64,000 nt of DNA from Flavobacterium crocinum (GTDB lineage: Bacteria > Bacteroidota > Bacteroidia > Flavobacteriales > Flavobacteriaceae): the NCBI RefSeq assembly GCF_003122385.1, contig NZ_CP029255.1:2914001-2978000 (forward strand), given 5' to 3'. The notes beneath the pieces were generated by a model. It worked only from the letters and a program-made list of their open reading frames with translations. It was not told where the DNA came from and did no database searches. Positions 23,795 to 32,865 of this stretch are shown in pieces. Position 1 is the first letter of the stretch, and each line of letters opens with the position of its first letter. The translations under genes and the position numbers were made by a program.

Positions 23795-23818
23795 ATTAAA
23801 GATAAATTTGTCTTTTAT
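23795..23818. promoter_or_regulatory. Rrf2/NsrR-type operator copy 1, in front of the regulator gene
   Basis: 11-2-11 inverted repeat ATTAAAGATAA-AT-TTGTCTTTTAT. It differs by one base per half from the copy at 24909. It covers the TTTG (23807-23810) of the regulator's own promoter, so binding would block transcription. Confidence 0.75.
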
Positions 23819-23838
23819 GTAAAACCTCTATATCTTTG
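23807..23838 (+). promoter_or_regulatory. Promoter of the Rrf2 regulator gene
   Basis: TTTG at 23807-23810, 20 bp, then TATCTTTG at 23831-23838, 22 bp before ATG 23861. The -33 box lies within the inverted repeat. Confidence 0.65.
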
Positions 23839-23860
23839 TAAAGAATTAATTGATGAATGT

Positions 23861-24310
23861 ATGTTTTCAAAAGCGTGTGAGTACGGAATTAGAGCTTCTA
23901 TTTTTATTGCAACCAAATCTTCTAAAGGAATTAGGGTTGGAATAAAAGATGTTGCGAAAGAAATTGATTCTCCAGAACCCTTTACGGCCAAGATCATGCA
24001 GATTTTGACCAAAAACGGAATCATTCATTCGGCAAAAGGAGTAGGAGGTGGTTTCGAGGTTTCAAGCGAAGCTGTAAAATCAATAAAATTAATCCAGATT
24101 GTGGATGCAATTGACGGAAATAAAATTTACAGTGGTTGTGGGATTGGACTAAAAGAATGTTCTGAAGAGCATCCTTGTCCCATACATCATGAATTTAAAA
24201 AAATAAGAGGCCTGCTTTTAGAAATGCTGACTAAAACAACTTTAGAACAGCTGGCATCAGATGTAAAATCAGGCGATTTCTTCCTAAAAACATTAAATAC
24301 AAACGATTAA
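23861..24310 (+). CDS. Rrf2 family transcriptional regulator, NsrR-like
   Basis: 149 aa. A winged helix fills residues 1-70 (FSKACEYGIRASIFIA, GIKDVAKEIDSPEPFTAKI). Three cysteines, C93, C100 and C106 (CGIGLKECSEEHPC), are placed like the Fe-S ligands of NsrR and IscR, so it probably binds a cluster that NO destroys. Its neighbours (azurin, NO reductase, Ric/YtfE, nitrite reductase) and three copies of one inverted repeat in their promoters support a role as NO-sensing repressor that also represses itself. The NsrR assignment is inferred from cysteines and context; an IscR-like role is less likely because no isc or suf genes are near. Confidence 0.88.
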   Translation: MFSKACEYGIRASIFIATKSSKGIRVGIKDVAKEIDSPEPFTAKIMQILTKNGIIHSAKGVGGGFEVSSEAVKSIKLIQIVDAIDGNKIYSGCGIGLKECSEEHPCPIHHEFKKIRGLLLEMLTKTTLEQLASDVKSGDFFLKTLNTND

Positions 24311-24332
24311 CATTTAATAAATTATCTTAAAA

Positions 24333-24857
24333 ATGAATACAAAAACCAAAATTTCAGTACTAATCTTAATGGGATTTTTAGCAGTTACTTCTTGCGGTAA
24401 AAAAGAAACAGCTCCGGCTGATCAGACAGAAACAACTGAACCGTCTACAGAAGGAGAAGCGGCTCCGGTAACATCAACTGAAGAAAATGTATTAGTTATT
24501 GAAGGAAATGACCAAATGCAGTTTAATACCAATGAATTGAAAGCCGTTGCCGGAAAACCAATCAAATTGACTTTAAAGCATGTCGGAAAAATTCCAAAAG
24601 AAGCGATGGGGCATAATTTAGTGATTCTTCAGGAAGGAACAGACCAAGCTGCCTTTGCCTTAAAAGCAAATGACGCAAAAGCAACTGATTATATTCCTGA
24701 ATCTGAAAAAGCTTCTGTAATCGCTCACACTAAATTGTTAGGTGGAGGCGAAGAAGATACAATCGAATTTACAATTGATAAAAAAGGTTCTTATCCATTT
24801 ATCTGCTCTTTCCCTGGTCACGTAGCCATGATGAAAGGTGTACTAATTGTTGAGTAA
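24333..24857 (+). CDS. Azurin-like cupredoxin lipoprotein
   Basis: 174 aa. Lipobox VTSC (Cys21), a Thr/Glu/Pro-rich linker at 25-52, then an azurin fold. Type 1 copper ligands are visible: His94 (MGHNLVI), Cys158 (FICSFPGH), His163 and Met167, with the azurin spacing Cys-x4-His-x3-Met. It should carry electrons in the periplasm, likely to the NirK-type reductase encoded in the same island or to NO reductase. The gene is 22 bp after the regulator gene and probably in its transcript, so it is under the same operator. A terminator follows. Confidence 0.93.
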   Translation: MNTKTKISVLILMGFLAVTSCGKKETAPADQTETTEPSTEGEAAPVTSTEENVLVIEGNDQMQFNTNELKAVAGKPIKLTLKHVGKIPKEAMGHNLVILQEGTDQAAFALKANDAKATDYIPESEKASVIAHTKLLGGGEEDTIEFTIDKKGSYPFICSFPGHVAMMKGVLIVE

Positions 24858-24862
24858 ATAAC

Positions 24863-24900
24863 AAAGACTCCAAATACTGGAATAGGTTTGGAGTTTTTTT
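24863..24900 (+). terminator. Terminator after the azurin gene
   Basis: ACTCCAAA at 24867-24874 pairs with TTTGGAGT at 24887-24894, followed by seven T. It separates the regulator-azurin transcript from norB. Confidence 0.8.
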
Positions 24901-24908
24901 AAACACTA

Positions 24909-24932
24909 ATAAAAGATAAAATTATCTTTTAT
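24909..24932. promoter_or_regulatory. Rrf2/NsrR-type operator copy 2, in front of norB
   Basis: Perfect inverted repeat ATAAAAGATAA-AA-TTATCTTTTAT, 14 bp before the norB ATG. It is the best of the three copies and probably overlaps the core promoter, although no exact TAnnTTTG is present (TATCTTTT is closest). Confidence 0.8.
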
Positions 24933-24946
24933 TGAATAGAAAAAAG

Positions 24947-27181
24947 ATGAAAAGAGAAAAAAAATTATGGATTGTTTTTGCATTGGTAATGAGTATCTCA
25001 TTTGCAGTGCTGGGCTATTATGGATATGAAATTTATCAGCAGGCACCTCCGGTTCCTAAAGAGATTGTTTCAGATTCCGGAAAAGTTATTTTTAGCGAAA
25101 GCGAAATTAAAGACGGACAAAATATCTGGCAGAGTATAGGAGGCCAGGAAGTGGGATCGATCTGGGGACATGGTGCTTATGTGGCCCCGGACTGGACCGC
25201 TGATTGGCTGCACAGAGAAGCTGTTTTTATACTGGATATTTATGCACAAAAAGATTTTAATAAAAAGTATGCCGAATTAGATGCTGAAAAACAGTCGGCT
25301 TTGAAAGTTAGATTGCAGCAAGATTTAAGAACAAATCGATACAATTCTGAAACTGGAGTGCTCACAATTTCTGAAAATCGAGTTGCTGCAATAGAAAATT
25401 TAAGCCAATACTATAAAGGTCTTTTTACAAATGATCCTCAATTTGATAAACTGAGAAGCGACTATGCGATTCCGAAAAATTCTATCACAGATGTTGAAAG
25501 AATGCATAAAATGAATGCGTTTTTCTTTTGGGCAACCTGGGCTACAGTTACGAATCGTCCAGATAATAACATTTCGTATACACACAACTGGCCATCAGAC
25601 GAATTGGTTGGAAATACGGCAACAACTGAACTTTTGGCCTGGTCTGGAGTAAGTATTATTTTGTTGATTTTAAGTGTCGGCATCTTAGTTTTTTATCATG
25701 CAAAATCAGGTGAAGAAGAAGAATTTCCGCTTCCAAAAGAAGATCCGATTATCAAGCATGGCAAAACAAAATCAATGGGTTTGGTTGTCAAATACTTTTG
25801 GATTGTGAGTTTATTGATGGTTCTGCAAATGGTTTTCGGAATCATAACGGCGCATTACGGTGTCGAAGGAAATGGTTTGTACGGAATTCCAATTGATCAG
25901 ATTTTACCTTATGCTGTTACGCGTACTTGGCACACACAATTGGCCATTTTCTGGATTGCAACGGCTTGGCTGGCAACGGGATTATATATTGCTCCGGCAG
26001 TTTCGGGCAAAGACCCTAAATTTCAATGTTTTGGAATTAACTTTTTGTTTGTCGCTTTACTAATTATTGTTTTAGGTTCAATGGCTGGACAATGGTTTGG
26101 TGTAATGCAGAAACTGAATTTAGTTCAAAATTTCTGGTTTGGACATCAAGGTTACGAATATGTTGATTTGGGTCGTTTCTGGCAGATTTTTCTTTTAGTG
26201 GGATTGTTTTTATGGCTGGCATTAATGATCCGTCCATTACTTCCGGTTTTGAAGAAAAAAACAGAAGAGAAAAACTTAATCATTTTGTTCCTGGTTTCTT
26301 GTACTGCCATTGCCATGTTCTACGGAGCGGGATTAATGTGGGGAAGACAAACCAATTTAGCCATCGCAGAATATTGGAGATGGTGGGTTGTGCATCTTTG
26401 GGTGGAAGGTTTCTTTGAAGTATTTGCAACGGTTGTAATTGCGTTTTTGTTTGTTCGTTTGGGATTATTAAAAACGAAAACTGCAACTTTAAATGTTCTT
26501 TTTGCGACGATTATTTTCATGTCTGGAGGAATTTTAGGGACATTCCATCATTTGTATTTCTCGGGAACACCAACGGCGATTATGGCACTTGGAGCTACTT
26601 TCAGTGCTTTAGAAGTTGTGCCTTTAACTTTAATCGGATTTGAAGCCTATCAAAACTATAAACTCTCAAAATCAACACAATGGATTGCCGATTACAAATG
26701 GCCAATCTACTTTATGATTTCTGTAGCTTTTTGGAATTTCCTCGGAGCGGGAATCTTTGGATTCATCATTAATCCGCCAATTGCATTGTACTATGTTCAG
26801 GGATTAAATACAACACCTTTACACGGGCATACCGCTTTATTTGGAGTGTACGGAATGCTTGGAATTGGTTTGGTATTATTTGTATTGAGAAGCTTATATC
26901 GAAACGTAAGCTGGAATAATAAACTGCTTAAAATTACTTTCTGGTCTTTAAATATTGGTTTATTCCTGATGGCAATTCTGAGTTTGCTTCCTATCGGAGT
27001 TTGGCAGGCAATTGAAAGCATCAATCACGGAATGTGGTACGCTCGTTCATCAGAATTAATGCAACAACCAGCAATGATTACGCTGAAATGGCTTCGTGCC
27101 ATTGGAGACTCAATCTTCGGAATCGGATTTATTACAATGGCCTGGTTTGTATTTGAACTGACATTAAAAAACAAAAAATAA
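24947..27181 (+). CDS. norB: Nitric oxide reductase, quinol-dependent large subunit (qNOR/NorZ type)
   Basis: 744 aa, about the length of single-subunit qNOR. Reduces two NO to N2O with electrons from quinol. The N-terminal helix is followed by a large periplasmic domain (residues about 35-220, with QNIWQSIGGQEVGSIWGHGA). About a dozen helices follow that bind the hemes and FeB. Ligand-type histidines are in RTWHTQLAIFW, VHLWVEGFFE, FHHLYFSGTP and PLHGHTALFGVYG, and the Glu of WVEGFFE is the FeB-site glutamate of NORs. ATG 24947 is chosen; a TTG at 24932 would lie inside the operator. ric/ytfE follows after 23 bp. Confidence 0.93.
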   Translation: MKREKKLWIVFALVMSISFAVLGYYGYEIYQQAPPVPKEIVSDSGKVIFSESEIKDGQNIWQSIGGQEVGSIWGHGAYVAPDWTADWLHREAVFILDIYAQKDFNKKYAELDAEKQSALKVRLQQDLRTNRYNSETGVLTISENRVAAIENLSQYYKGLFTNDPQFDKLRSDYAIPKNSITDVERMHKMNAFFFWATWATVTNRPDNNISYTHNWPSDELVGNTATTELLAWSGVSIILLILSVGILVFYHAKSGEEEEFPLPKEDPIIKHGKTKSMGLVVKYFWIVSLLMVLQMVFGIITAHYGVEGNGLYGIPIDQILPYAVTRTWHTQLAIFWIATAWLATGLYIAPAVSGKDPKFQCFGINFLFVALLIIVLGSMAGQWFGVMQKLNLVQNFWFGHQGYEYVDLGRFWQIFLLVGLFLWLALMIRPLLPVLKKKTEEKNLIILFLVSCTAIAMFYGAGLMWGRQTNLAIAEYWRWWVVHLWVEGFFEVFATVVIAFLFVRLGLLKTKTATLNVLFATIIFMSGGILGTFHHLYFSGTPTAIMALGATFSALEVVPLTLIGFEAYQNYKLSKSTQWIADYKWPIYFMISVAFWNFLGAGIFGFIINPPIALYYVQGLNTTPLHGHTALFGVYGMLGIGLVLFVLRSLYRNVSWNNKLLKITFWSLNIGLFLMAILSLLPIGVWQAIESINHGMWYARSSELMQQPAMITLKWLRAIGDSIFGIGFITMAWFVFELTLKNKK

Positions 27182-27204
27182 AAACATATTTAAATATAAG
27201 AATC

Positions 27205-27936
27205 ATGGAAAATTTAAAAAACAAAACAATAGGATCGTTTGTGGCTGAGGATTTTAGAACTGCTGCCGTTTTCTCCAAATACAGAATAGATTTTTGTTGT
27301 AAAGGAAACCGAACTGTAACAGAAGTCTGTGAAAAACAAAATATCGATGCCGATACTTTATTGGAGAATGTTCTGCAAATTACACAATCAGAAAACAACG
27401 GAAGCATCGATTTTAATTCCTGGCCTTTAGATTTACTGGCAGATTATATTGAGAAAACGCATCATCGTTATGTAGAAGAAAAAACGAATGTTTTATTGCC
27501 GTTTTTAGATAAATTGTGCAAAGTTCATGGAGCCAATCATCCTGAATTATTCAAGATTAATGAATTATTTATTGGCTGTGCGGGTGAATTGTCACAGCAC
27601 ATGAAAAAAGAAGAATTGATATTGTTTCCTTTTGTAAAAAGAATGATAAAAACGAAAGAATCAGACGGGATTTTACACCAGCCTTCTTTCGGAACCGTTT
27701 CAAATCCGATTGCGATGATGATGCACGAACACGATAATGAAGGCGAACGTTTTAGAGCAATTGCCGAATTGACCAATAATTACACGCCACCAGCAGACGC
27801 TTGTACGACTTACAGAGTGACTTTTGCGATGTTGAAAGAGTTTGAGGCAGATTTACACAAACACATTCATTTGGAAAATAACATCTTATTTCCAAAAGCA
27901 GTCGTTTTAGAAAAAGACTTTGTTGAAGCAGAATAA
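27205..27936 (+). CDS. ric: Iron-sulfur cluster repair di-iron protein (Ric/YtfE/ScdA)
   Basis: 243 aa. The N-terminal ScdA domain carries YRIDFCCKGNRT with Cys31 and Cys32. The C-terminal hemerythrin-like four-helix bundle has iron-ligand histidines and acids in EKTHHRYVEE, HMKKEELILFPF, MMHEHDNEGERF and LHKHIHLENNILFP. It helps restore Fe-S clusters damaged by NO or oxidants. It is 23 bp downstream of norB and in the same direction, so the two would be induced together, which fits the NO-response reading of the locus. Confidence 0.95.
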   Translation: MENLKNKTIGSFVAEDFRTAAVFSKYRIDFCCKGNRTVTEVCEKQNIDADTLLENVLQITQSENNGSIDFNSWPLDLLADYIEKTHHRYVEEKTNVLLPFLDKLCKVHGANHPELFKINELFIGCAGELSQHMKKEELILFPFVKRMIKTKESDGILHQPSFGTVSNPIAMMMHEHDNEGERFRAIAELTNNYTPPADACTTYRVTFAMLKEFEADLHKHIHLENNILFPKAVVLEKDFVEAE

Positions 27937-27956
27937 AGGTTAATTTTATTAATTCG

Positions 27957-28004
27957 AAAAGCACCGATAGCCTATCTGATAAATGATAATTATCGGTGTT
28001 TTTT
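27957..28004 (+). terminator. Terminator after ric
   Basis: CACCGATA at 27962-27969 pairs with TATCGGTG at 27991-27998 and is followed by TTTTTTATTT; the 21-nt loop contains a smaller AT-rich hairpin. Confidence 0.65.
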
Positions 28005-28049
28005 ATTTCAAGAAATGTTATTTTTTAACGAATTGAGTTTTACTAAAAA

Positions 28050-28184
28050 AAACACATAGAAATATAGATTTTAACAAACTTAAAAGACGATTTTAGAAAA
28101 TCTAGATTTTTACACATAGCTATGTGTATTCATGCAAGTGAAACGCCTTTTAAATGCTTGCAAAATCTATGTCCCTATGTGTTT
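28050..28184. repeat. ACATAGAA-type arrays with nested palindromes, left copy
   Basis: The left arm at 28050-28072 (CACATAGA-AATATAGA-TTTT) is complementary to the right arm at 28162-28184 (AAAATCTATGTCCCTATGTG). Between them lie the perfect palindromes AAAATCTAGATTTT (28097-28110) and TACACATAGCTATGTGTA (28111-28128) and a TGCAAG/CTTGCA pair (28133/28157). The same unit recurs at 29707-29797, on the other side of the next gene. Confidence 0.75.
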
Positions 28185-28203
28185 AAATAAAATTTATTCA
28201 TTT

Positions 28204-29427
28204 ATGAATTCTCAAAAAACCTGGATACTCTGCTGTTTTTTTAATTTTCTGATTGCGTGCGTTTTCGGATTATTAATGCGGTTTATATATTTGTTTCCAT
28301 TAGATTTTTTAAACTATAGTTTTTTGCTTCATGCGCATTCTCATGTTGCTATGTTAGGCTGGGTTTATATGATTGTTTATGTTTTGGTCGTTCATTTTTT
28401 TATTCCGAAAGAAAAAAGACAGAAACCGATTTACAATCGTTTATTCTGGCTGACAGAATTTTCAGTTATAGGAATGATGATTGCTTTTCCAATTCAGGGA
28501 TATGCTTTGTTTTCGATCATATTTTCAACGATACATATTTTGCTGAGTTATGTTTTTTGCCGTTTGGTTTGGAAAGATTGTTCTAAAGATAAATCTCCAT
28601 CGAAAAGACTTTTATTGGTTTCCATTTTATTTATGATTTTATCGACATGTAGTGTCTGGTGTCTTGGTCCGGCCGTAAGTATGTTAGGAAAACAAAGTAC
28701 TTTTTATCAGATTGCGATTCAGTTTTTCCTTCATTTTCAATTTAATGGCTGGTTTGTATTGGCGATTTTAGCTTTATTTTTAAAACAATTTCAAAATAAA
28801 ATCGATGAAGTGAAATTTAAGAAGTTTTATTTGCTAATAATTATTTCTACATTATTAACGGTTACTTTCCCAATACGGTGGTTTGTCGAAAATAATGTTT
28901 TGAATTATATCAATGGTTTAGGAGTTTTGATTCAATTAGTAGCTTTTCTCTATTTTTATAAAATGCTAAAACCTCAAATTAGTCATTTTAAAAGTAATTT
29001 AGATAAAACCACAAAAATGGTTTATAGTCTGGCATTGTGCTCTTTGATTTTGAAAATCGGAATTCAATTGCTTACTATTTTTCCAAATTTGGCCGAGGTT
29101 TCACATCAAATTAGAAACTTTGTAATTGGTTTTATTCATTTAACCACTTTAGGAATCATAACGGGGTTTTTGTTTGGAATTTTACTGCAAAATAAAATAC
29201 TTTCTGTTAATTCTTCAATATTAAAAATAGGAGTGAAGTGCTTTATTTTTGGATATATTTTTACAGAGATTTTATTGTTTTTGCAAGGTTGGTTTTTGTT
29301 TTTTGAAGAAGGAACAATCCCTGGATATTTTCAAAGTATTTTGATATTGAGTATTCTTTTGGTTTTGGGATTGGTTTTAATGATGGTATCTGTAATAAAT
29401 TTTCGTTCCAATAATTCCCGTAAATAA
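28204..29427 (+). CDS. Polytopic membrane protein with conserved histidines, NO/nitrite island, unknown function
   Basis: 407 aa with about 11-12 hydrophobic helices. Helix 2 has LLHAHSHVAMLGW (His43, His45, His47), helix 6 has FLHFQFNGWFVLA, and a late helix has GFIHLTTLGIITG. Paired histidines in membrane helices resemble heme- or metal-binding proteins of the heme-copper oxidase/NnrS type, and its place between ric and the nirK operon agrees, but I cannot name the family. ATG 28204 is preferred to ATG 28132, which lies inside the palindromic repeat. A related repeat lies on the other side of the gene, so it may have arrived as a unit. Confidence 0.6.
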   Translation: MNSQKTWILCCFFNFLIACVFGLLMRFIYLFPLDFLNYSFLLHAHSHVAMLGWVYMIVYVLVVHFFIPKEKRQKPIYNRLFWLTEFSVIGMMIAFPIQGYALFSIIFSTIHILLSYVFCRLVWKDCSKDKSPSKRLLLVSILFMILSTCSVWCLGPAVSMLGKQSTFYQIAIQFFLHFQFNGWFVLAILALFLKQFQNKIDEVKFKKFYLLIIISTLLTVTFPIRWFVENNVLNYINGLGVLIQLVAFLYFYKMLKPQISHFKSNLDKTTKMVYSLALCSLILKIGIQLLTIFPNLAEVSHQIRNFVIGFIHLTTLGIITGFLFGILLQNKILSVNSSILKIGVKCFIFGYIFTEILLFLQGWFLFFEEGTIPGYFQSILILSILLVLGLVLMMVSVINFRSNNSRK

Positions 29428-29498
29428 ATTCCCGAGGAACGATATATTTATAGAATATTATTAATTAAGTAAAAATGAAAAATTTCATTTAGAAGTTT

Positions 29499-29580
29499 TT
29501 CCTGCAAGGTTTCAAAAACCTTACAGGTATCTGGATATGTAAAAATAAATACCTATGAGGTTTTTGAAACCTTGCAGGAA
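29499..29580. repeat. Long palindrome, CCTGCAAGGTTTCAAAAACC type
   Basis: 29499-29529 pairs with 29550-29580 (31 bp each, three mismatches) around a 20-bp AT-rich loop. Each arm itself contains GGTTTCAAAAACC, so nested hairpins are possible. No coding potential. Confidence 0.8.
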
Positions 29581-29632
29581 TTAAAACTGTTTAGAAATTA
29601 TCAATTCAATCATTGAGTAAGTATATAAATAA

Positions 29633-29672
29633 AAAACAAGAGCTGATTTTTTCCAAAATCAAACTCTTGTTT
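29633..29672. terminator. Bidirectional terminator-like hairpin
   Basis: AAACAAGAGCTGATTTT pairs with AAAATCAAACTCTTGTTT with one bulged position, flanked by A and T runs, between the converging membrane-protein gene and SCO gene. Confidence 0.65.
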
Positions 29673-29706
29673 CTTACTAATTAACCTATTTAATTTACTT
29701 TCTTTT

Positions 29707-29797
29707 AAAATACATAGAGAGCTATGAGTTAAAATCTAGATTTTTTTAAATTATCTGTGTAGTTTTTCTGAAATCTATGTTTCTATGTGTTTTAAAA
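29707..29797. repeat. ACATAGAA-type array, right copy
   Basis: TACATAGAGAGCTATG at 29711 and, on the complement of 29770-29797, CACATAGA-AACATAGA-TTTC, with AAAATCTAGATTTT shared with the left copy at 28097. The two copies flank the gene at 28204. Confidence 0.7.
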
Positions 29798-29805
29798 TAA
29801 ATCCG

Positions 29806-30408
29806 CTAAATTTTCCCTGCTTCCTGATTTATTACTTCGATAGTTTTTTCATTATTTACACCCAAACCTTCCTGCTGAAAAATCAATTCTCCTTCGGGAT
29901 TAAACACACTGATAATATTCGAATGCGAAAAATCAATAGGAGATATTTTTTTATAATTAACAGCCAAAACTGCTGCAAACTCACGTGTGTTTTCTTCTGT
30001 TGAACGAAGGAAAATCCACGGAGCCTGATTCATTTGATTTTCAATCGCAAAAGATTTTAATCTTTCAGGCGTATCTGTTTTTGGGTCTATACTTACCAGG
30101 ATTAATTTTACATTTTGTTTGTACTTTTTATTCAATTTGGATTCAATGTCACGCATATCGGCAACTAATCTTGGACATGCAGCTTTACAGCTTGTGTAAA
30201 TCATTACCATTACGAGAACATTTCCTCTGAGTGATTTTAACTCAATATTATTTCCATCTTGAGTTGTCCATTTTGAAGGCAGATTGTAAATAGATAAATC
30301 ACTGATTTCTTTTGTTGTTTCTGCTTTGTTTTCTGCTTTTATGTCGGCCTTTTTACAACTGTAAAAAGATAAGGCAAGAGCAAGAAATACAATTGTTATT
30401 TTTTTCAT
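29806..30408 (-). CDS. SCO1/SenC family copper chaperone, lipoprotein
   Basis: 200 aa. Lipobox FYSC (Cys18), then a thioredoxin fold. Copper ligands are visible: Cys74 and Cys78 in TSCKAACP and His162 in DFSHSN. SCO proteins deliver copper to or reduce thiols in CuA sites. Here the likely client is the copper nitrite reductase made from the first gene of the same operon (inference). Gap to the upstream FGE-like gene is 16 bp. It is the last gene of the operon. Confidence 0.9.
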   Translation of the reverse strand: MKKITIVFLALALSFYSCKKADIKAENKAETTKEISDLSIYNLPSKWTTQDGNNIELKSLRGNVLVMVMIYTSCKAACPRLVADMRDIESKLNKKYKQNVKLILVSIDPKTDTPERLKSFAIENQMNQAPWIFLRSTEENTREFAAVLAVNYKKISPIDFSHSNIISVFNPEGELIFQQEGLGVNNEKTIEVINQEAGKI

Positions 30409-30424
30409 TTCAAACTAATTTAAA

Positions 30425-31201
30425 TTAGATTTTTGGTTTTGTTGTGCTTGCGCATCTAAAGCCAAGATTTCTTGTAGAATATTGTGCTTTCAAACTTCCT
30501 CTGAAGGCGTATCGCATAAAAGCGGCATAATCCATTAAATCGGATGCATTAACTGAGGCGCCTCCACAGAAAAGGTTTTTATCGCTGCTTTTATCTTTTC
30601 TGGATTCGCCAGATAAAAAAATACTGTTGAAATCAGATGTCCATTCCCAGACTAAACCGTGCATATCATAAACGCCCCAATAATTCTTGAATGTTTTACC
30701 AATTTCATTTTCGTAAGTTCTCGATTTCTCGTACCAGGATAAAATATATTCGTTGAATTCTTTTTTGGTTCGGGCATCTATTTTTTTGGTGTCGGCCATT
30801 GCTACATATTCCCATTCGTCCATTGTGGCTAATCGTTTGCCTTCACATTCACAGTATTTTTTAGCAGCAAACCAAGAAACACTTGTAACTGGCGAATTTG
30901 GTTTTGCGTTTCCAAAATCAAAATCGTTTATCCAATAAGAGAGATAACTTTTGTCAGCAAAAATTCCTTTTATTTTTGATTTTCGATAGGAAGGATTTTT
31001 TTTGACAAACTCTAAAAACTGACTGTTAGTTACAGGATAAACATCTATATAAAATGACTTCACAACTACAGGATTTTTGGAAACAGCTCCATAAAGAGGG
31101 ACAAAAGATCCCTCTTTAATGAAAGCCATTCCTTTTTCCTGCGCTTTCATGACACTAAACACAGAGAAAAAGAGAGTTAGTATGAAAATGTATTTTTTCA
31201 T
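30425..31201 (-). CDS. Formylglycine-generating-enzyme-like (SUMF1 fold) exported protein
   Basis: 258 aa, signal peptide 1-20 (...FSVMKAQ). The FGE-sulfatase fold is shown by PVTNSQFLEFVKKNP, VTSVSWFAAKKYCECEGKRL, the following ATMDEWEYVA and the terminal NLGFRCA. The paired catalytic cysteines of true sulfatase-activating FGE are not seen in the expected segment before the C-terminus (one Cys in LFCGGASVNAS), and no sulfatase is near. So it is an FGE-like protein, perhaps a maturation or structural factor for the nitrite reductase. It lies between nirK (16 bp) and the SCO gene (16 bp). Confidence 0.85.
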   Translation of the reverse strand: MKKYIFILTLFFSVFSVMKAQEKGMAFIKEGSFVPLYGAVSKNPVVVKSFYIDVYPVTNSQFLEFVKKNPSYRKSKIKGIFADKSYLSYWINDFDFGNAKPNSPVTSVSWFAAKKYCECEGKRLATMDEWEYVAMADTKKIDARTKKEFNEYILSWYEKSRTYENEIGKTFKNYWGVYDMHGLVWEWTSDFNSIFLSGESRKDKSSDKNLFCGGASVNASDLMDYAAFMRYAFRGSLKAQYSTRNLGFRCASTTKPKI

Positions 31202-31217
31202 GCTGTTTGTTTGCTGT

Positions 31218-32663
31218 TTATCTTAATGCTTTTACCATTTCTGGTGTAACTTCTGTTTTATTATTTCCCCAGCTGTTATAAATGTAGGTCAGTACATTTG
31301 CGATTTCATCATCAGATAAATTCTGGGAAGGCATAACGTTGTTGTATTTTTTGCCATTAACGGTTACTTCTCCGGTTAAACCATGCAGAATTGTTTTAAT
31401 AGCACGTTTAGAATCGGCATTTAGATAATCTGATTTTGCCAAAGGAGGAAAAGTACTCGGAATTCCTTGCCCTTCAGATTGATGACAGGCGAAACAAGTA
31501 GTTCCAAAAATTTCTTTACCAATATTAATTTTCTCGGTAACTGTTCGTTTTGGAATTGTAGTTTTTGCAGTTGGTCCACCGGGCATTTTCTGAATCGTTC
31601 CGCCTTCAGGCAGATAAATACCTTCCTGAATGGTTCCGGAATAAATGTTTTTGTTCTCTTTTCCTTCTACTTTCAACATTCCCAATGCCCCTTTATTAAA
31701 TGCTCTGAAAATAGAATGATCTACCAAAATAAAAGTTCCGGGAGTTTCTACTTTAAAATCGACAATTGCAGCACCGCCGGCAGGAATAAGAGTCGTTTGT
31801 ACATTTTTGTTAACCATGCTTCCGCCTTCAACGTGTACATTGTCAAATATTTCACCAATTACATGGAAAGAAGAAACTAAATTTGGACCGCCGTTTCCAA
31901 CAAATAAACGAACCGTTTCACCAACTTTTGCAGTTAATTCATTTCCGTTTGTTAACGAACCTACTTTTCCGTTAAATACAACATAATCAGGTGTTTCTTT
32001 TACTGCTTTGTTCATGTCAAACGGCTGAAGACCTTTGGCTCCATATTCACCCTGAGTGTAAAAATCGCCCTGCATTACATAGTATTCTTTATCGACAGTA
32101 GGAAGTCCGCCTTCTGGTTCAACCAAAATCAAGCCGTACATACCATTTGCAATGTGCATCCCAACAGGAGCTGTAGCGCAGTGATATACATACAATCCGG
32201 GATTGATTACTTTAAAGCTAAAAACTTTTTCATGTCCCGGCGCTACGAGAGAAGAAGTCGCTCCACCACCTGGACCAGTTACAGCATGTAAATCGATGTT
32301 GTGAGGCAGTTTATTGTCAGGATGGTTTTTTAAGTGAAATTCAACTTCGTCGCCAACACGCGTTCTGATAAAACTTCCGGGAACAGAACCTCCAAATGTC
32401 CAATATGTATATTTTACACCATCGGTCATAGTGCCTTCCTGTTCCTTGATTTCCATGTTTAATTTCAATTTCATGGCGGTTCTGTTTCCAACTGGTTTTG
32501 GAACATGAGGAGGCGATGTAAGCTCAGCTTCCATTTCGCCTTCAGTCATAATATCGGCGTAATTATGTGCTTCCTCTTTTTTGCAGCTTCCTAATAAAAG
32601 AAGCATAAAAAACGAACAAAATAGTATGCTCATTTTGATTAAAAATTTAGTATTTCTTTTCAT
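31218..32663 (-). CDS. nirK: Copper nitrite reductase NirK with fused C-terminal cytochrome c
   Basis: 481 aa lipoprotein (lipobox LGSC, Cys27). Reduces nitrite to NO. Two cupredoxin domains cover about 55-340. Type 1 copper ligands: His121, Cys162, His170, Met175. Type 2: His126, His161 and His316 of the partner subunit. Catalytic residues: Asp124 (HNIDLH) and His267 (SFHVIG). From 380 a cytochrome c domain follows, with heme site CFACH (390-394) and probable axial Met444 (VMPSQNLSD). It is the first gene of the nirK, FGE-like, SCO operon, with an operator at 32704. Confidence 0.95.
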
Positions 32664-32698
32664 ATTATCTGGGTTTTGTTTTCGTTTTAAATACTAGT

Positions 32699-32706
32699 CA
32701 AAAATA
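32699..32706 (-). promoter_or_regulatory. -7 element of the nirK operon
   Basis: Plus-strand CAAAAATA, TATTTTTG on the coding strand, 35 bp before the nirK ATG. It overlaps the inverted repeat by three bases. Confidence 0.6.
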
Positions 32707-32727
32707 AAAGACAATTTTATCTTTTAT
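32704..32727. promoter_or_regulatory. Rrf2/NsrR-type operator copy 3, in front of nirK
   Basis: ATAAAAGACAA-TT-TTATCTTTTAT: identical to the norB operator except one base in one half and the 2-bp spacer. It covers the region between -7 and -33 of the nirK promoter, which fits repression. Confidence 0.8.
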
Positions 32728-32865
32728 TATGATAAAAATCATGTTTACAGATAATTTTAGCGCTTTTTCAGGGAATTATTTAAAGGGTAAATCTTGTTAA
32801 AAAAAACGTATTGATATTTTTTTAATAAAAATAAATGACACTCTGAATTTTAGAATAATAATGAT

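Follow-up and report, generated by a model that had tools for sequence, protein, structure and literature searches.

Among the repressors of the Rrf2 family, the closest described counterpart of the system considered here is NsrR of Streptomyces and Proteobacteria. Its targets include norB, nirK, hmp and dnrN/ytfE (PMC1274295, PMC5411485, PMC9338935), its recognition motif is gATGyAT-N5-ATrCATc (PMC1274295), and the protein of S. coelicolor carries cysteines C93, C99 and C105 (PMC5411485). In Chromobacterium, Ralstonia and Neisseria an FNR-type site accompanies that of an Rrf2 repressor at nirK or norB (PMC1274295). The accessible part of a coastal-sediment metagenome study calls the control of denitrification genes poorly known beyond Proteobacteria and Firmicutes, and reports rrf2 genes near clade II nosZ, found with flavobacterial proteins as queries (PMC6264515). 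That system shares with ours the location of Rrf2-family regulator genes beside denitrification genes and differs in that, in the same part of the report, only the neighbourhood is described, the role of the regulator is left open and no operator is given. A literature search, with most subscription papers outside its reach, yielded no description of the regulon presented below.

The DNA examined was a 64-kb window (the whole stretch analysed) of contig NZ_CP029255.1 of Flavobacterium crocinum, whose genome comprises 5.88 Mb. All three palindromic sites claimed in the first-pass annotation are present there, at exactly the positions it gave (Table 1). Its description of them as having the same 11-bp arms and a 2-bp spacer is nearly and not strictly true, because operators 3 and 1 contain 1 and 2 unpaired positions, respectively; operator 2 has none.

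Table 1. Coordinates of operators, promoter elements and genes in the 64-kb window
Feature	Position	Strand	Sequence or evidence
Operator 1 (rrf2)	23795..23818	+	ATTAAAGATAA-AT-TTGTCTTTTAT; includes TTTG 23807-23810
rrf2 promoter -7 box	23831..23838	+	TATCTTTG; 20 bases downstream of TTTG
Rrf2-family regulator, 149 aa	23861..24310	+	PF02082 83.6 vs 30 bits; TIGR00738 81.7 vs 73.3 bits
Azurin-like cupredoxin, lipoprotein-type start (by eye)	24333..24857	+	TIGR02695 109.2 vs 105.1 bits
Terminator-like repeat	24868..24900	+	CTCCAAA..TTTGGAG and T tract, by eye; 8 bases upstream of operator 2
Operator 2 (norB-ric)	24909..24932	+	perfect ATAAAAGATAA-AA-TTATCTTTTAT; norB ATG 14 bases further on
norB, fused-type nitric oxide reductase	24947..27181	+	PF22085 253 bits; PF00115 211.5 bits
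ric, ScdA/YtfE-type di-iron iron-sulphur repair protein	27205..27936	+	TIGR03652 243 vs 204.7 bits
P5, 12-helix membrane protein, heme-copper oxidase subunit I fold	28204..29427	+	fold comparison
SCO1/SenC protein, third gene of nirK run	29806..30408	-	PF02630 67.6 bits
FGE/sulfatase-modifying-factor-like protein, second gene of nirK run	30425..31201	-	PF03781 116.7 bits
nirK, copper nitrite reductase with C-terminal cytochrome c domain	31218..32663	-	TIGR02376 352.2 vs 296.3 bits; PF00034 49.2 bits
nirK promoter -7 box	32699..32706	-	TATTTTTG; shares 3 bases with operator 3
Operator 3 (nirK)	32704..32727	-	+ strand reads ATAAAAGACAA-TT-TTATCTTTTAT
FNR/DNR-like pair	32729..32742	-	ATGAT-N4-ATCAT; centre 20 bp upstream of operator 3 centre

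With up to 3 mismatches allowed, the 24-bp consensus had three matches in the window, against an average of 0.01 in shuffled sequences, none of 100 of which reached three. The genome-wide scan suggested by the first-pass annotation returned, at the same stringency, just these three sites and none elsewhere in the 5.88 Mb; the pattern written backwards gave 2 matches. The core AAAGAYAANNTTRTCTTT without mismatches is likewise confined genome-wide to the three operators. At 1 mismatch it has 6 further matches in the genome and the free-spacer pattern adds 2, all 8 of which lie within open reading frames and were rejected as operators. Six of these frames are Pfam-assigned (SusD, rRNA dimethylase, photolyase, RNA methyltransferase, glycosyl hydrolase, RDD), with no evident link of these families to NO, and the other two have no Pfam family. 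A 1-mismatch match that begins about 180 bp upstream of a different Rrf2 gene (L084/L088) was taken as chance, because it sits within the RDD-family gene. At up to 2 mismatches real matches in the genome were rarer than those of the backwards control (87 versus 132 for the core, 51 versus 91 for the free-spacer pattern), and weaker sites are therefore not callable by sequence alone.

Conservation of the three sites extends over some 50 close loci, with a mean column identity of 0.90–0.97 inside them and 0.64–0.72 outside; the record of Flavobacterium johnsoniae (L023) carries the full set. The rrf2 site was found in 49 of 49 loci, the window counted, at up to 3 mismatches (column identity 0.97 inside versus 0.68 outside); locus L020, with too little flank, was omitted from this count, and its site was seen in a separate locus comparison. 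Upstream of norB or ric the site is present in all 28 loci with norB and in 21 of 22 without it, where it precedes ric; the 22nd, L043, has it with 3 mismatches in the separate comparison, which brings the total to 50/50. The nirK site accompanies every local nirK (39/39 loci, the window counted, up to 4 mismatches).

The regulator encoded next to operator 1 scores above the curated cut-off of the Rrf2 superfamily model PF02082 and has the Rrf2 fold. Its cysteines form the pattern C93-X6-C100-X5-C106; all three, like H109 and E7, are unchanged across the 21 homologues compared. It shares with NsrR the fold, the three conserved cysteines of the cluster loop and, judging by site positions, a regulon centred on NO and denitrification genes. 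Compared with S. coelicolor NsrR, the cysteine spacing has one extra residue, and Glu7 stands, by eye, roughly where that protein has Asp8. The name NsrR, proposed in the first-pass annotation, found no support: the protein scores 27.6 bits with the NCBIfam equivalog model (NF008240), whose cut-off is 182, the cysteines read CX6CX5C, and the consensus here, ATAAAAGAY-N6-RTCTTTTAT, differs from the NsrR motif by its core GAY-N6-RTC. The model scores suggest that the regulator is not orthologous to NsrR; it would work like NsrR, and identity with it is not supported. Equivalog cut-offs were also missed for IscR (42.8 versus 207.55 bits), RirA (38.6 versus 193) and CymR (33.3 versus 195), as was that of the SUF regulator model (52.7 versus 110.65). 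IscR, RirA, CymR and RsrR, the last without a model in the set searched, have superfamily and fold in common with our protein, and their signals and targets are other than those proposed for this regulator.

Operator 1 covers, as the first-pass annotation had it, the TTTG of the regulator promoter, which we take to be the -33 element, and extends from -48 to -25 of the predicted promoter. The arrangement TTTG-N20-TAnnTTTG is present in 44 of 49 close loci; the TAnnTTTG element has been placed at -12 to -5 (PMC9723704). In distant loci the palindrome RGAYN6RTCY occurs 25–75 bp upstream of rrf2 in 27 of 31 cases, compared with 0.79% of 50-bp windows, and since the core site precedes rrf2 there so regularly, the putative autoregulation is old. 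The azurin gene, starting 22 bp downstream of rrf2, is an unproven candidate target.

At nirK the overlap of the operator with the -7 box was borne out by the 3 shared bases, and operator 3 spans positions -33 to -10 of the predicted promoter. The -7 box conforms to TAnnTTT[GA] in all 39 close loci with nirK and to the stricter TAnnTTTG in 29. A general sigma-70 scan was uninformative (35 found, 36.0 in shuffles). Separated from the operator by one base is an FNR/DNR-like pair, a detail beyond the first-pass annotation. It is centred at -41.5 from the predicted start, in line with the -41.5 rule for FNR/DNR-type activator sites, it is the single occurrence of ATGAYN4RTCAT in the window, and it keeps an identical offset from the operator in 39/39 nirK loci. 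The one-base separation, the fixed offset and the TAnnTTTG promoter distinguish this arrangement from the double control by NsrR and DNR/FNR. Here we infer both the promoter starts and the identity of the activator; five CRP-type HTH genes of the genome score above cut-off. An FNR-like pair without the operator was found at the genome's own nosZ operon.

At norB, whose product we take from its size to be of the quinol type, no -7 box was visible by inspection upstream of the start. Sequence similar to the terminator-like repeat that precedes operator 2 is also carried by relatives upstream of their norB/ric sites. A terminator scan with a loop limit of 8 flagged neither of the repeats seen by eye. 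P5 starts 268 bp past ric, beyond the other such repeat, and its membership in the regulon is uncertain. At 1e-3 it matches nothing in Pfam or NCBIfam, and no match was found among PDB sequences; a Pfam search at E 10 gave weak hits only, to DUF2298 in 1 of 16 (0.00029) and to DUF2871 in 4 of 16 (0.0035 at best). Counted by spacing, the genes number seven (rrf2-azurin, norB-ric and nirK-FGE-SCO) in place of the nine previously counted, with P5 standing apart and the AKB gene doubtful.

Across the genus, 49 exact sites occur in 34 of 150 genomes, and 2 are given by the backwards control. Of the 61 genomes that encode a relative of the regulator at E<=1e-15, 34 have such sites, compared with none of the 89 others (Fisher p 2.8e-17, an optimistic value because the species share ancestry); 27 genomes have the relative and no exact site. 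By our own grouping, 12 sites belong to nirK, 10 to norB, 13 to a norC-like gene divergent from ric and 7 to ric, 3 lie between rrf2 and a divergent norC-like gene, and one each stands at rrf2, at hmp, at a cytochrome-nosZ operon and after rrf2-azurin at a locus lacking norB and ric. The norC-like gene has a partner whose match to a solved NorB scores 300 bits. All 49 sites thus fall at NO/denitrification loci or rrf2, a statement about sites by our grouping and not about measured regulation.

In distant Flavobacteriaceae the core is kept and the outer arms are often different; such altered arms in other genera are also new relative to the first-pass annotation. By frequency the other-arm pattern AATTNRGAYN6RTCYNAATT was rejected, with 33 sites in 199 family genomes and 38 in the backwards control. 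Positions are its sole support: 21 of the 33 are at rrf2, nirK or a nos-type cytochrome, positions having been classed for real-pattern sites alone. The other 12 comprise 9 within open reading frames and 3 intergenic ones (L150, L167, L186). The cytochrome of L154 was classed as nos-type by eye, and nosZ was not seen there.

Taken together, these data point, with a probability of about 0.8, to the three palindromes being operators of the adjacent Rrf2-family protein, likely an iron-sulphur, NO-responsive repressor. Of the single autoregulated NO-responsive regulon proposed at first pass, the tie of the operators to the local Rrf2 protein, the autoregulation and the NO/denitrification theme stand on comparative genomics, and an NO regulon is well supported; sensing of NO we infer. 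The bound regulator would cover the TTTG of its own promoter, positions -10 to -33 of that of nirK and the stretch directly before norB-ric, keeping expression of rrf2, nirK and norB-ric low. A rise of NO, produced by the cell's own NirK or coming from outside, would damage the presumed cluster and take the regulator off the DNA, so that expression of NO reductase, RIC, NirK and the regulator itself could proceed. Expression of nirK probably depends on a further condition, for example low oxygen, imposed by an FNR/DNR-type activator at -41.5.

The same regulator and operators might instead answer to iron or Fe-S status, as in the case of IscR, RirA or the SUF regulator, with an indirect response to NO; this appears improbable, since in our grouping iron-uptake and cluster-assembly genes account for none of the 49 exact sites. 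Somewhat less probable still is occupation of the sites by a different Rrf2 protein or another factor, the neighbouring rrf2 gene being merely a target. The genome does encode three other Rrf2 proteins, and in three Aquimarina-type loci (L061, L062, L064) the outer arms at rrf2 and nirK differ; yet all 34 genomes with the motif have a relative of the regulator, and the core site upstream of rrf2 in most of the distant loci also speaks for the local protein.

As to the sign of regulation, the lack of a visible -7 box at norB means that activation, or a block of read-through, is possible there. Activation at any of the three operators is nevertheless unlikely, as the rrf2 and nirK operators overlap predicted core promoters. 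Least plausible of all is that the palindromes act as RNA hairpins, terminators or attenuators: operator 2, lying just past the terminator-like repeat, may be transcribed, but operators 1 and 3 are upstream of the predicted starts, and with full-length arms an RNA loop would need more than the 2-base spacer.

If the repressor reading is extended to the family, Flavobacteriaceae would possess a clade of Rrf2 repressors peculiar to them, NO-sensing and non-orthologous to classical NsrR, which gate most NO steps (NirK, RIC, NO reductases of the quinol and cytochrome types and, in certain species, also Hmp and N2O reductase) through a conserved GAY-N6-RTC core whose outer arms follow either of two codes, ATAAAA or AATTN, beside an FNR-type activator and with the undescribed heme-copper-fold P5 in the neighbourhood; for this composite proposition we consider the odds even. 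A defined operator makes flavobacterial denitrification control testable with respect to the genes answering to NO, the balance between NO producers and consumers and the way in which a single promoter accommodates sites for both the repressor and an FNR-type factor, and such regulons become readable directly in genomes.

The AKB gene is divergent from nirK and was considered in 10 loci without local nirK, that is, within 10-kb flanks. The best sites upstream of it had 2, 4, 4, 5, 6, 7, 7, 8, 8 and 9 mismatches, and the observed value was matched by 0 to 20 of 500 letter shuffles in four loci and by 127 to 500 of 500 in six. With the site at chance level in 6 of 10 loci, AKB as a target is unsupported and probably lies outside the regulon. 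A deletion removing the promoter would give the same picture, and the losses are not independent. One relative without local nirK, L014, retains a 2-mismatch site upstream of AKB.

All three 11-2-11 palindromes that the first-pass annotation had placed before rrf2, norB-ric and nirK are present at exactly the coordinates it gave. When the single 5.88 Mb contig of the genome was scanned for their consensus with up to three mismatches, three matches were obtained, all in this locus, against two for the same pattern read backwards. The core without mismatch was found nowhere in the genome but at these three sites. One mismatch to either of two core patterns added eight places, all within open reading frames; six of the frames belong to known families that show no evident connection with NO, and two could be assigned to no family; at up to two mismatches genomic matches were rarer than in the control. 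Because the gaps between genes are short, rrf2 and the azurin-like gene (22 bp), norB and ric (23 bp), and nirK with the FGE-like and SCO genes (16 and 16 bp) may each be taken as an operon, while ric is separated from P5 by 268 bp containing a terminator-like repeat (read by eye).

Features of the locus
Feature	Coordinates	Orientation	Remark
Operator 1	23795-23818		before rrf2
Predicted rrf2 start	23843		operator 1 would then cover -48 to -25
rrf2 (regulator)	23861-24310	one strand	
Azurin-like protein		same strand as rrf2	
Terminator-like repeat	24868-24900		ends 8 bases ahead of operator 2
Operator 2	24909-24932		before norB-ric
norB		same strand as rrf2	
ric		same strand as rrf2	
P5	28204-29427	same strand as rrf2	12-helix membrane protein
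SCO protein		opposite strand	
FGE-like protein		opposite strand	
nirK		opposite strand	fused to cytochrome c domain
Predicted nirK start	32694		operator 3 would then cover -33 to -10
Operator 3	32704-32727		before nirK
FNR/DNR-like pair	32729-32742		ATGAT-N4-ATCAT, beside the nirK operator
AKB		divergent from nirK	

Conservation was followed in loci gathered from the regulator (best 80 of at least 547 confirmed candidates), its closest protein matches among those listed being from named Flavobacterium species (97%). In the close set, comprising the window and L004-L052 (50 loci), the site precedes rrf2 in 49 of 49 usable loci, norB or ric in 50 of 50 and nirK in all 39 having a local nirK; norB is absent in 22 loci, and there the operator still sits before ric. 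Mean column identity inside vs outside the site was 0.97 vs 0.68 for rrf2, 0.93 vs 0.72 for norB, 0.91 vs 0.64 for ric without norB and 0.90 vs 0.64 for nirK. The rrf2 site is conserved over its full length; those of norB, ric and nirK vary more in the middle than in the nine outermost bases of either half. In solved complexes of NsrR, IscR and RsrR the central 7 bp are described as free of base-specific contacts (PMC9338935).

Across 150 evenly drawn genomes of the genus the exact pattern ATAAAAGAY-N6-RTCTTTTAT gave 49 sites in 34 genomes (control, 2). Relatives of the regulator, paralogues included since identities down to 38% were accepted at E<=1e-15, were detected in 61 genomes; all 34 genomes with the motif belong to these, and none of the remaining 89 has it. 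Grouped by us according to the nearest downstream genes, the sites precede nirK (12), norB (10), a norC-like gene divergent from ric (13), ric (7), divergent rrf2 and norC-like genes (3), and, once each, rrf2, hmp and a cytochrome c gene followed by nosZ and nosD; in one locus (L124) the site lies between the azurin gene and AKB, with norB and ric absent between them. Distances to the gene are mostly below 100 bp, the larger ones being up to 370 bp for ric opposite norC-like genes and 241 bp for the nos cytochrome. NosZ (949 bits), NosD (409) and Hmp (496) exceed their NCBIfam cut-offs, the norC-like gene is a cytochrome c by Pfam, and the gene after it, tested in L105, gives 300 bits to solved NorB. 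In L104, from a genome of the genus other than that of the window, this operator has a flavohemoglobin gene on one side and on the other a diverged Rrf2 gene (47% identical).

In the distant set (31 loci, L053-L083, rrf2 57-62% identical) RGAYN6RTCY occurs 25-75 bp before rrf2 in 27 loci, vs 0.79% of 50-bp windows, with dyads at -49 to -55 in 25 of the 27. Their outer arms start with AATT in 15 cases and ATAAA in three, the remainder being varied. The pattern AATTNRGAYN6RTCYNAATT gave 33 sites in 30 of 199 family genomes and 38 in the control (our sum), so that its frequency gives no evidence; 18 sites lie before rrf2, two before nirK, one before a nos-operon-like cytochrome (by eye), nine within open reading frames and three between other genes. 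Both arm types stand side by side in the Aquimarina-type loci L061, L062 (a metagenome-assembled genome) and L064, AATTC at rrf2 and ATAAAA at nirK.

The regulator is an Rrf2 protein, and all 21 hand-picked homologues share C6, E7, C93, C100, C106 and H109. S. coelicolor NsrR uses C93, C99 and C105 together with the partner subunit's Asp8 (PMC5411485), and E7 falls, by eye, near the position of Asp8. The protein stays below the cut-off of all six equivalog models listed, and among the seven models in the list it is NsrR that gives the lowest score; the protein is therefore not filed as NsrR, and of the proposed NsrR identity we retain, by inference, an NsrR-like mode of working. PMC1274295 treats the NsrR regulons of Proteobacteria and Gram-positive bacteria as well as HcpR of Bacteroides, and a word search of its main text gave neither Flavobacteri nor Cytophaga; PMC6264515 notes Rrf2-family genes close to clade II nosZ, and the part dealing with them leaves their role open. 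Our literature search found no description of this operator.

The -7 box TAnnTTTG is positioned at -12 to -5 (PMC9723704). TTTG lies within operator 1, and TTTG-N20-TAnnTTTG is conserved in 44 of 49 close rrf2 loci, as is TAnnTTT[GA] in 39 of 39 nirK loci. One base upstream of operator 3, a position kept in all 39 loci with a local nirK, there is a pair ATGAY-N4-RTCAT, a 14-mer occurring once within the 64-kb window and centered at -41.5 from the predicted nirK start. This is the usual position of class II FNR/CRP activators. The simplest reading of these sequences is that the Rrf2 repressor would leave DNA in response to NO and an FNR-type activator would act together with it. Before norB no -7 box is visible, and operator 2 follows a terminator-like repeat at 8 bases; norB may be controlled by read-through. 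The nosZ operon of this genome, 1.3 Mb away (L184, G000:C1:4240000-4256000), has an FNR-like pair upstream and a CRP/FNR-type gene nearby, and the Rrf2 operator looked for there is absent. Operator and FNR-like pair occur together before norC-norB in L070 (NorB identified by 57 bits to solved NorB) and L075 (NorB by eye) and upstream of a cytochrome in L154, in an order that varies among the three.
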